A DNA stretch of 64,000 bases, taken from assembly GCA_913061465.1 (NCBI GenBank), contig CAJXSU010000002.1, positions 62,001-126,000 on the forward strand, in the 5' to 3' direction. Made by a program: the position numbers and the translations under genes. Positions 9,119-13,305 of the stretch are shown in pieces (within the stretch, counting starts at the first letter, position 1; each line of letters begins with the position of its first letter). This stretch comes from an uncultured Flavobacterium sp. (GTDB taxonomy: Bacteria > Bacteroidota > Bacteroidia > Flavobacteriales > Flavobacteriaceae). A model generated the notes under the pieces. It did no database searches, had not been told where the DNA came from, and worked only from the letters and a program-made list of their open reading frames with translations.

Positions 9119-9154
9119 AACAAAAAAAGCGGCTTTTCATCCGCTTTTTTTGTT
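9119..9154. terminator. Bidirectional intrinsic terminator
   Basis: AACAAAAAAAGCGG-CTTTTCAT-CCGCTTTTTTTGTT 14-bp stem between convergent genes. Confidence 0.85.
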
Positions 9155-10235
9155 ATCCATTCATCACTTTTTCTTGATGATTAATAGATTCTTGGTGAAT
9201 GGCTTTAAATACCCTTAAAATAAATTCTTCACTTAATTTATTCTGCTCGCCCTCTAGAATCATTTTACCTAAAATTTCGTTCCATCGCTTAGATTGTAAT
9301 ACCGCTACGTTCTTATCTTTCTTAAGTGCTCCAATAGCATCTGCTATTTTCATACGTTTCCCTAAAATATCTATCAATTGATGATCTATAACATCAATCT
9401 GAGTTCTCAACGTATTTAATGAATTTCTATAGTCTGCTTCTGTATCGGTCTCTTTTCTAATCTTTAAATCTTCCATCATTTGAATAAGAGTATCAGGAGT
9501 TACTTGTTGTGCAGCATCACTCCACGCATTATCTGGATCAACATGGGTTTCAATCATTAAACCATTAAAATTTAGATCTAAGGCTGTTTGGGATACTTCA
9601 AAAATCATATCTCTTTTTCCAGTAATATGAGATGGGTCACATATTAGTGGTAAATCTGGAAATCGGTTTTGTAATTCTATGGCAATTTGCCATTCTGGAT
9701 TATTACGATACCTAGTTTTTTCATAAGTAGAAAAACCTCTATGAATCACTCCTAAGTTTTTAATATCAGCAGAATATAACCTTTCTATTCCTCCAAGCCA
9801 AAGAGCTAAATCTGGATTTACTGGATTTTTTACTAATACTATTTTGTCCGTGCCTTGTAAAGCATCTGCAATTTCTTGAACTATAAATGGACTCACTGTA
9901 GATCTTGCGCCAATCCACAACAAATCAATATCATGCTCAAGAGCTAATTTTACATGCGCTGCATTGGCTACTTCTGTAGCGGTCTTCATTCCAGTTTCTG
10001 CCTTTACTTTTTGAAGCCATTTTAACCCAAGTGCACCCACACCTTCAAAATTTCCTGGCCTAGTTCTAGGCTTCCAAATTCCTGCTCTAAAATAGTTTAC
10101 ATCAGAATCTTTTAATTCGTGCGCGATCTTTAATACCTGATCTTCTGTTTCTGCACTACAAGGCCCTGCTACTACGAGTGGATGATCTAAACTTAAATCA
10201 TCCAACCATGTTCTTAATTCTTTTGTATTCTTCAT
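9153..10235 (-). CDS. Bifunctional 3-deoxy-7-phosphoheptulonate synthase / chorismate mutase type II
   Basis: LVVAGPCSAET, RAGIWKPRTRPGNFEGVG, CDPSHITGKR plus C-terminal chorismate mutase (LRTQIDVIDHQLIDILGKRM). Confidence 0.93.
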   Translation of the reverse strand: MKNTKELRTWLDDLSLDHPLVVAGPCSAETEDQVLKIAHELKDSDVNYFRAGIWKPRTRPGNFEGVGALGLKWLQKVKAETGMKTATEVANAAHVKLALEHDIDLLWIGARSTVSPFIVQEIADALQGTDKIVLVKNPVNPDLALWLGGIERLYSADIKNLGVIHRGFSTYEKTRYRNNPEWQIAIELQNRFPDLPLICDPSHITGKRDMIFEVSQTALDLNFNGLMIETHVDPDNAWSDAAQQVTPDTLIQMMEDLKIRKETDTEADYRNSLNTLRTQIDVIDHQLIDILGKRMKIADAIGALKKDKNVAVLQSKRWNEILGKMILEGEQNKLSEEFILRVFKAIHQESINHQEKVMNG

Positions 10236-10303: not shown

Positions 10304-11152
10304 TTATTTAATGCCTTTAAGTATAGCTGCAATATGATTTGTTTCTTGCATCTCATCAAAAACTTGATCAAATTTATGCTCTTCCATCAGTTTTTTAAAT
10401 TGTTTTAAATTTCCAATATATTCGTCAAGAGTTTCAATAATATTCTCTTTATTTTGTTCGAAAATAGGAGTCCACATTACAGGAGAGCTTTTTGCTAACC
10501 TAACGGTAGACTCGAAACCACTTCCAGCCATATCAAAAATATCACGTTCATTTTTTTCTTTCTCTATCACTGTTTTACCCAACATAAAAGAACTAATGTG
10601 AGATAGGTGAGATACATATGCGATATGCTTGTCGTGTGAAACAGCATCCATATATCGAATTCTCATTCCTATTTTAGAGAAAATCTCTAAAGCCTTTTCT
10701 TGTAATTTAAAAGCTGTCTTCTCTACCTCACAGATGATGTTTGTTTTTTCTTTATATAATCCTAGCATAGCTGCTTTTGGTCCTGAAAATTCTGTTCCAG
10801 CAATGGGATGGGCTGCTAAAAAATTTCTTCTTTTTGGGTGGTCTTTAACAGCCTCACAAATACGTTGTTTAGTAGATCCTGCATCAATAACTAAGGCGTT
10901 ATCATTTACAACATCTAATATCTTTGGTAATACACTTAAAGTAGCATCAACGGGTATGGTTATAAATACCACCTCTGCATCTTGCACATCATCAAGACTA
11001 GCTTCTTGATGAATTACGCCGTGCGCTATAGCTTCTTTAATATGGCTGTTATTTAAATCTACACCATAAATAATAGCATCTGGATATTCTTGTTGAATAT
11101 CTAGTGCAAAACTCCCGCCAATTAAACCAGTACCAATGATAAAAACCTTCAT
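10304..11152 (-). CDS. tyrA: Prephenate dehydrogenase
   Basis: Rossmann GTGLIGGSFALDI, AAHPIAGTEFSGP, SHDKHIAYVSHLSH. Confidence 0.92.
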   Translation of the reverse strand: MKVFIIGTGLIGGSFALDIQQEYPDAIIYGVDLNNSHIKEAIAHGVIHQEASLDDVQDAEVVFITIPVDATLSVLPKILDVVNDNALVIDAGSTKQRICEAVKDHPKRRNFLAAHPIAGTEFSGPKAAMLGLYKEKTNIICEVEKTAFKLQEKALEIFSKIGMRIRYMDAVSHDKHIAYVSHLSHISSFMLGKTVIEKEKNERDIFDMAGSGFESTVRLAKSSPVMWTPIFEQNKENIIETLDEYIGNLKQFKKLMEEHKFDQVFDEMQETNHIAAILKGIK

Positions 11153-11153
11153 C

Positions 11154-12296
11154 TTACAATCTTTCTAATGCTTCCTTAATTTTTTCTTCAGATACACACA
11201 ATGAAAATCGAATATACCCTTCACCACTACTCCCAAAAATAAAGCCAGGTGCAATAAAAATATCTTTGTTATACAATAAATCATCTACCATATTTTCCGC
11301 TTTTACTCCCTCAGGAGTTTTTGCCCAAACAAACATACCTGTAGTGTTTTTATCGTAACTACACCCAAGAGTATCTGCTATTTTCCAAACTAATTTTCTT
11401 CTATTTTTATATACCTTATTCATTTCAGAAAACCAAGATGAACTAACTTTTAAAGCAGAAATAGCTCCTTGTTGTATTCCATAAAACATTCCAGAATCCA
11501 TTTGTGTTTTCACTTTCAAAACTTCTTTTAAAAATGAGCTTGCACCCAACAACATCCCAACTCTCCATCCTGCCATATTAAATGATTTACTTAAAGAGTT
11601 TAATTCTAGTGCTGTTTCCTTTGCTCCTTTTACACTTAAAATGCTAAGCGGATTATTGTTTAATATAAAACTATATGGGTTGTCATTTATAATTAAAATT
11701 TGGTGTTTTTTACCAAAAGCTATTAATTTTTCAAACAGAGCTTGAGTTGCTTTTGCACCGGTTGGCATGTGAGGGTAATTTACCCACATCATTTTTATAT
11801 TGGATACATCCTCTTTTTCAAGTTCTTCAAAATCTGGCTCCCAGTTATTTTCTGAAGTTAACTCGTAAAAAATAGGAGTAGCCTCAACTAAATTGGTAAC
11901 TGATGTATAGGTTGGGTACCCAGGGTTTGGGATTAATACCTTATCTCCTTTGTTTAAAAAAGCCATAGATATGTGTAAAATTCCTTCTTTACTCCCCATA
12001 AGTGGAAGGATTTCGTGATCTGAACTTACTTCAACATTATACTTGTTTTTATAAAAATCTGCCACAGCTTCCCTAAACTCCGGTAATCCCTGATAGCTTT
12101 GATACTTATGAGCTCCTTCAATAACAACTGCTTGTTGAATAGCTTCAATTACTTTGGCAGGAGGCTGTAAATCTGGACTACCAATCCCCATATTTATAAT
12201 GGGTTTACCTTCAGTTGACAGTGCTCTAACCTCTCTAAGTTTCTTAGAAAAATAATATTCTTGAACCGTATCTAATCTATTGGCTGCTTTCATCAT
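11154..12296 (-). CDS. Class I/II aminotransferase (aromatic biosynthesis operon)
   Basis: MGIGSPDLQPP, NPGYPTYTS, SLSKSFNMAGWRVG (PLP lysine). 4-bp overlap with pheA stop. Confidence 0.92.
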   Translation of the reverse strand: MMKAANRLDTVQEYYFSKKLREVRALSTEGKPIINMGIGSPDLQPPAKVIEAIQQAVVIEGAHKYQSYQGLPEFREAVADFYKNKYNVEVSSDHEILPLMGSKEGILHISMAFLNKGDKVLIPNPGYPTYTSVTNLVEATPIFYELTSENNWEPDFEELEKEDVSNIKMMWVNYPHMPTGAKATQALFEKLIAFGKKHQILIINDNPYSFILNNNPLSILSVKGAKETALELNSLSKSFNMAGWRVGMLLGASSFLKEVLKVKTQMDSGMFYGIQQGAISALKVSSSWFSEMNKVYKNRRKLVWKIADTLGCSYDKNTTGMFVWAKTPEGVKAENMVDDLLYNKDIFIAPGFIFGSSGEGYIRFSLCVSEEKIKEALERL

Positions 12297-13120
12297 TTTC
12301 TACCATTTTTATAGGTTCCTAAAATTTTGAAATCTTCAGCCATAATGTCAATAATTTTTACCAATTTTTGGTACTCTGTATATTCGTCAAAAGTTACATC
12401 TACAAAGAAGGAATATTTCCATGGAGTTTCTATGACAGGTAAGGATTGTATTTTGGTTAAATTCATTTTACAATCACTTAATACATTTAAAACTGCAGCT
12501 AAACTTCCTCTTTTATGACTTAATTCAAATTTTAATGATGCTTTATTAATGTCATCATTTGAAGTATTTGGCAGTTCTGTTTGAACAATCACAAATCTTG
12601 TTGAATTGTCTTTAATAGTCTGTATATCATCTTCTAATACCTGTAACCCAAAAATTTCAGCTGCAATTTTTGGAGCAATAGCTGCAATACCCTTAATATT
12701 TTCTTTTGCAATTCTTTTGGCAACCTCAGCCGTGTCTACATCTTCAACTAATTTAATGTGAGGGTGCTTTTTAAAAAACTCTTTACATTGTAATAATGCC
12801 ATAGGATGAGACCAAACCTCTTTGATACTTTTTATTGTTTGCCTAGGTAATGCCATCAAATGGTGATGAATATTTAAATATTTTTCCCCTATAATATGCA
12901 AATTATTTGAGTCTATGAGTGCATAATTTGGTATTATAGAGCCAGCAATCGTATTTTCAATAGCCATAACACCATCAGTAGCTGAGCCATCTAATAAATG
13001 AGCTACTAAGGCGTCAAAAGACATGCATTCTTTTAATTGAATGTTTTCACCATAAAAGTCTCTTGCTACTTTATGATGATTAGAACCCTCTGCTCCTTGT
13101 ATGGCAATAATTTTATTCAT
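12293..13120 (-). CDS. pheA: Prephenate dehydratase (with ACT domain)
   Basis: AIQGAEGSNHHKVARDFY, GVMAIENTIAGSI, STRFVIV and ESP-like ACT region (SLPVIETPWKYSFFVD). Confidence 0.92.
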   Translation of the reverse strand: MNKIIAIQGAEGSNHHKVARDFYGENIQLKECMSFDALVAHLLDGSATDGVMAIENTIAGSIIPNYALIDSNNLHIIGEKYLNIHHHLMALPRQTIKSIKEVWSHPMALLQCKEFFKKHPHIKLVEDVDTAEVAKRIAKENIKGIAAIAPKIAAEIFGLQVLEDDIQTIKDNSTRFVIVQTELPNTSNDDINKASLKFELSHKRGSLAAVLNVLSDCKMNLTKIQSLPVIETPWKYSFFVDVTFDEYTEYQKLVKIIDIMAEDFKILGTYKNGRK

Positions 13121-13127
13121 TTATATC

Positions 13128-13156
13128 AAAAAAAAAATCTCGAATTAGATTCGAGA
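13128..13156 (-). terminator. pheA-operon attenuator terminator
   Basis: Minus strand TCTCGAAT-CTA-ATTCGAGA stem followed by T10 (forward A10 at 13128-13137), 8 nt upstream of pheA ATG. Confidence 0.9.
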
Positions 13157-13193
13157 CTTTCAGTTATATAGTTTTTACAATATACGTAGCGTC

Positions 13194-13256
13194 TCAACTT
13201 TTGCTAAAAAAGTAAAAGTAGAAAAAGAAGCTATTCCAAACGTATTGCATATTCAT
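13194..13256 (-). CDS. Phe/Tyr leader peptide MNMQYVWNSFFFYFYFFSKS
   Basis: ATG AAT ATG CAA TAC GTT TGG AAT AGC TTC TTT TTC TAC TTT TAC TTT TTT AGC AAA AGT TGA; eight consecutive Phe/Tyr codons just upstream of the attenuator. Confidence 0.88.
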   Translation of the reverse strand: MNMQYVWNSFFFYFYFFSKS

Positions 13257-13274
13257 GTTAAATTTTAATCCCGA

Positions 13275-13305
13275 CAAATCTAAGTATTAAATTTACATAA
13301 ACAAA
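13275..13305 (-). promoter_or_regulatory. Promoter of aromatic operon (TTTG-N19-TAGATTTG)
   Basis: Exact match to Bacteroidota -33 TTTG / -7 TAnnTTTG consensus with 19-nt spacer, about 18 nt upstream of leader ATG. Confidence 0.8.

Follow-up and report, generated by a model that had tools for sequence, protein, structure and literature searches.

The region upstream of pheA in the window (the whole stretch of 64,000 nucleotides that was analysed) very probably holds a classical ribosome-mediated transcription attenuator, which would sense charged tRNA-Phe and tRNA-Tyr and control the operon of pheA, an aminotransferase gene, tyrA and a DAHP synthase–chorismate mutase (DAHPS/CM) gene. The region has the anatomy of an attenuator, together with the conservation, covariation and spacing of one, and these point to translation of the leader, termination, and a readthrough that would respond to Phe and Tyr. 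When both amino acids are ample, the leader ribosome would pass the Phe/Tyr (F/Y) codons and cover segment 2, upon which segments 3 and 4 would form the terminator and transcription would stop near 13128. A shortage of either Phe or Tyr would make the ribosome stall on the F/Y codons, its leading edge not quite reaching segment 2, and the free segment 2 could pair with segment 3 before segment 4 is made, letting RNA polymerase read into pheA. An earlier note, made from the DNA letters of this stretch, had proposed the same classical logic, which is now supported by the conservation, covariation and spacing described below.

Sequence inspection recovered every element that the earlier note had named on the minus strand between 13305 and 13128 (Table 1), including its promoter of the form TTTG-N19-TAGATTTG, and the profile matches agree with its naming of the four downstream genes as pheA, aminotransferase, tyrA and DAHP synthase/CM. 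The gene order pheA-aminotransferase-tyrA-DAHPS/CM is kept in 63 of the 74 family loci checked. With regard to the putative promoter, 110 of 213 relatives have TANNTTTG no more than 90 nt ahead of the leader ATG, mostly at a distance of 21–24 nt, compared with about 7% in shuffled sequence. Segment 2 overlaps the leader stop codon TGA (13196-13194), and an intrinsic terminator (13160-13128) is present between the leader and the first structural gene. Its hairpin of 12 bp (about -12 kcal/mol) has a three-nucleotide loop, CTA, between AAAGTCTCGAAT and ATTCGAGATTTT; the terminator ends 7 nt before the pheA ATG (13120), and 10 core terminator pairs are formed in 100% of the cells of the genus alignment. 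The sequences and coordinates of the earlier note are right, its eight consecutive F/Y codons included, but the start codon of the leader ORF has to be moved: the first ATG (13256) is absent from the near relatives L007, L009, L010 and L011, which share the second ATG (13250), so the leader most likely starts at 13250, giving MQYVWNSFFFYFYFFSKS.

Table 1. Predicted elements of the pheA leader region and genes of the operon downstream (positions in the window)
Feature	Position	Strand	Details
Bacteroidota-type promoter (putative, from sequence)	13275..13305	-	TTTG 13305-13302, 19 nt, TAGATTTG 13282-13275
Leader peptide ORF, conserved start (most likely)	13194..13250	-	MQYVWNSFFFYFYFFSKS*, 18 aa
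Leader ORF as first read	13256-13194	-	MNMQYVWNSFFFYFYFFSKS*; start 6 nt earlier than the conserved ATG
Regulatory codons, eight consecutive Phe/Tyr (FFFYFYFF)	13206..13229	-	from sequence
Segment 2, antiterminator 5' strand TTGAGAC	13191..13197	-	pairs with segment 3, -9.4 kcal/mol
Segment 3, AAAGTCTCGAAT	13149..13160	-	partner of segment 2 (antiterminator) or segment 4 (terminator)
Segment 4, ATTCGAGATTTT, terminator 3' strand	13134..13145	-	from sequence and genus alignment
T10 run of intrinsic terminator	13128..13137	-	from sequence
pheA, prephenate dehydratase	12293..13120	-	PF00800 1.4e-54; ACT-domain match weak
Class I/II aminotransferase	11154..12296	-	PF00155 2.1e-62
tyrA, prephenate dehydrogenase	10304..11152	-	PF02153 9e-34, PF20463 1.9e-24; NF006307 above cut-off
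DAHP synthase–chorismate mutase fusion	9153..10235	-	PF00793 4.4e-37, PF01817 2.7e-22

The pheA loci were gathered from named genome contigs and from genus, family, class and phylum samples, which together gave 230 distinct upstream regions. An F/Y-rich leader was found upstream of pheA in 214 of them: 98 of 99 in the genus and close relatives, 99 of 104 in a Flavobacteriaceae sample spanning about 100 genera, and 17 of 27 in a sample of the class Bacteroidia. Among 28 pheA loci taken from the phylum outside this class, none had such a leader. Several of the leaderless regions lie directly behind another gene or contain weaker aromatic ORFs. A terminator follows all 214 leaders (213 recognised by script and the last, L164, by eye in the sequence). 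The terminator with its T10 run, which the earlier note had placed immediately before pheA, is present in this sequence. The same note had staked its reading on a conserved aromatic leader and terminator in related genomes, which these counts bear out, and had suggested a covariance model as a check; the model of the genus element gave one strong match per genome (60–151 bits, next best at most 46), adjoining pheA, in 37 of 40 congeneric genomes, and the other three genomes are incomplete and also without a pheA match. The prephenate dehydratase family itself was matched in 41 of the 149 class Bacteroidia sample genomes versus 108 of the 121 family sample genomes.

These counts bear directly on an alternative without any regulated switch, in which the hairpin would be a plain constitutive terminator or a stem of the 5'UTR, and the leader ORF a coincidence of AT-rich DNA. 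AT-rich DNA easily codes for F, Y, K and N, and within this single sequence the pairing of segments 2 and 3 (2:3 pairing) stands out only modestly, being equalled by 38 of 2000 shuffles; the window sequence by itself would therefore be no proof of a switch, and the comparative pairing evidence is what decides. When the gene-free stretch was shuffled 3000 times with its dinucleotides preserved, no ORF with eight F/Y codons out of eight arose. Among about 464 upstream regions of other genes on related contigs, no ORF with at least seven F/Y codons out of eight was found, the one listed exception being pheA itself. The leader, the terminator and a covarying antiterminator recur together in 214 loci, and there is no upstream gene in need of a terminator: the upstream neighbour is divergent (plus strand, start 13577), so the hairpin cannot terminate an upstream gene, and this role was rejected. 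We consider that a constitutive terminator behind a chance ORF is in practice refuted by the comparative data, and we give it next to no probability.

The alternative pairing between TTGAGAC and the 5' arm of the terminator, noticed earlier in this sequence, is present here and both conserved and covarying across loci. The 2:3 pairing energy averages -13.9 kcal/mol across loci versus -5.6 kcal/mol for shuffled segment-2 regions, and in 97% of the loci at most 5 of 100 shuffles match the native energy. The core sequences vary by lineage (GAGAC, GGGAC, CGGGTT, GCGGTC and others) and the partner strand changes along with them; in a matrix of locus types, segment 2 pairs best with segment 3 of its own type. 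Covariation is uninformative within the genus, because the pairs hardly vary there, and it appears at the family and class level, where, among 118 loci, core pair 3 is a G-C pair in 60 and an A-U pair in 54. This position is paired in 117 of the 118 loci, compared with 89.5 (maximum 97) when partners are shuffled, and the whole core forms 801 pairs compared with 732 (maximum 747). An antiterminator that shares the 5' arm of the terminator, and is mutually exclusive with it, is thus present with compensatory G-C/A-U exchange. In folding, a nascent chain that ends with segment 3 adopts the antiterminator, and of the five loci folded, four adopt the terminator once the chain is complete. Since the completed terminator is mostly favoured thermodynamically, the predicted switch has to depend on timing, as known attenuators do.

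The position of the regulatory codons relative to the switch is similarly constrained. Segment 2 starts 9.0 ± 1.4 nt past the last F/Y codon across loci, compared with 16.6 ± 11.7 nt in the shuffled null, within a possible range of about 45 nt. A ribosome with the last F/Y codon in its A site has a footprint that reaches downstream about as far as the start of segment 2. The codons are therefore placed so that a stalled ribosome would leave segment 2 free and a ribosome further on would cover it, and the spacing fits the stall on the F/Y run by which the earlier note had expected TTGAGAC to be left free. That note had also supposed that a ribosome at the stop codon masks segment 2, which would hold for part of the relatives: of 213 loci, 92 would have segment 2 fully covered and most of the rest would have it partly covered. 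The stop itself can lie as much as 7 nt ahead of the first base of segment 2 or as much as 31 nt beyond it. Some relatives have the stop about 21 nt beyond that base, and a ribosome resting there would cover segment 2 only partly. Because the stop position varies in this way, masking by a ribosome exactly at the stop codon would not be a conserved feature, whereas the spacing between the F/Y run and segment 2 is fixed. As the one is fixed while the other drifts, we infer that the constraint acts on the stall site, as the attenuation model needs.

The textbook 1:2 protector hairpin is weakly supported: 7.1 pairs are expected versus 6.1 in synonymous recodings, and 29% of the loci reach the 5% level or better. 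In the genus its five pairs (GTTTC:GAGAC) are conserved without covariation. In almost all of the 35 genus sequences (columns 38-42/74-78 of alignment A1), GTTTC, made up of the first Phe codon and its flanks, can pair with the segment-2 bases GAGAC, and this pairing is a possible protector hairpin.

The fixed codon distance also weighs on the idea that the region is a ligand- or tRNA-sensing switch that works without translation, such as a riboswitch or T-box, or a protein-bound one, with the ORF incidental. A terminator/antiterminator pair alone would fit such a switch too, but what is conserved is an F/Y-rich reading frame and a fixed spacing between its F/Y codons and segment 2, leaving little room for an aptamer. 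The Rfam search of the whole window gave no family at the gathering threshold, T-box included, and T-box was also not among the weak matches of a permissive search of the locus. Taken together, an untranslated or protein-bound switch appears extremely improbable. Another proposal is that the aromatic peptide itself is functional, as an arrest peptide or a small membrane protein, and that its codons do not serve as a sensor of charged tRNA. The peptide is indeed about 24 aa long, very hydrophobic and long conserved, and the alternating FYFYFYF in the genus could suggest sequence-specific arrest. Against this, little of the peptide is conserved apart from the F/Y run, F and Y differ in order and number among leaders, and the stop codon shifts in position; a peptide that is variable outside the run and ends at a drifting stop is as expected for codons rather than for an acting peptide, and we regard a functional peptide as very improbable.

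All 214 leaders contain at least two Phe and at least two Tyr codons, with means of 5.5 Phe and 3.5 Tyr. A dual Phe/Tyr sensor is the natural reading, since the operon makes both products, and both amino acids would probably be sensed; such a leader is predicted to be a compact two-input sensor. Trp occurs in 61% of the 214 leaders (2.8% of residues), often in or near the F/Y run, and the leader of the window has a Trp codon at 13238-13236. One enzyme of the operon, DAHP synthase, supplies Trp synthesis as well. We tentatively suggest, as a broader idea that is rather unlikely to hold in full, that one ancestral attenuator, kept in much of Bacteroidia, acts as an aromatic OR gate: shortage of Phe or Tyr would open the first-enzyme operon, shortage of Trp would do so too where leaders carry Trp, and specificity would be set by the codon mix and the fixed codon-to-switch distance, not by the stop codon.

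A sample of Trp, His, Thr and Ilv operons, drawn by family search, yielded two further candidate leaders in the same genome. On the one hand, L282 (contig C83, minus strand) reads MQRQQNIWWWNFFS before trpE, followed by the hairpin AAAAAGGCTTATCTCACGATAGGCCTTTT, and its WWW leader recurs in almost every congeneric relative and in two further families of the order. On the other hand, L314 (contig C16, minus strand) reads MNFNQNHHHHFYHSTQAK before hisG, followed by the hairpin AACCCGTTTGAGACAATCAAACGGGTTT, and is found in relatives too. Both resemble the pheA leader in having a short ORF with repeated codons followed by a terminator, whereas each of them uses a single amino acid and is unrelated to it in sequence. 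The Phe/Tyr switch could be traced through Flavobacteriaceae and part of Bacteroidia, and with the Trp and His leaders alongside it, attenuation appears to be a regular means of amino-acid control among these bacteria. Short ORFs rich in Ile/Val (for example MNKQVLNIISIIIVIVIITT) and followed by a terminator-like hairpin were seen upstream of ilvD at L339, L340, L343 and L345, which suggests that the genus has a branched-chain attenuator.

In Proteobacteria, leader peptides that sense charged tRNA are a textbook form of regulation, and some amino-acid attenuators in Bacteroidetes/Chlorobi were reportedly predicted by Vitreschak et al. in 2004 (FEMS Microbiol Lett). According to a 2010 survey, charged-tRNA sensing by a leader peptide had been shown only in Proteobacteria and Actinobacteria until the survey added a case of its own from Firmicutes (PMC2965389). 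The 2021 transcriptome of Flavobacterium psychrophilum, of the same bacterial family, yielded strong clues to leader-peptide attenuation ahead of operons for amino-acid biosynthesis; its main text names no pheA case, and its supplementary tables may hold one (PMC9723704). Literature searches, which took in the main text of that study, returned no direct report of pheA attenuation in Bacteroidetes. It is well supported by the comparative data that the pheA leader would be a widely conserved case of an already known type of regulation. The locus scored 19.3 bits with the Rfam Phe_leader model RF01859 (threshold 55, E 0.74), and membership in that family was rejected on this score. Like enterobacterial pheL (RF01859), the element has a short Phe-rich leader ORF and an exclusive antiterminator/terminator pair directly upstream of pheA. 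Enterobacterial pheL is known for Phe codons only, whereas the leader described here combines Phe and Tyr codons in all relatives and its operon makes both amino acids. With the trp, his, ilv and thr attenuators of Proteobacteria it shares regulatory codons, segments 2, 3 and 4 and the predicted coupling of translation to transcription, but it differs from them in its weak or variable 1:2 hairpin, a stop codon that is not fixed to segment 2, and a putative Bacteroidota promoter.
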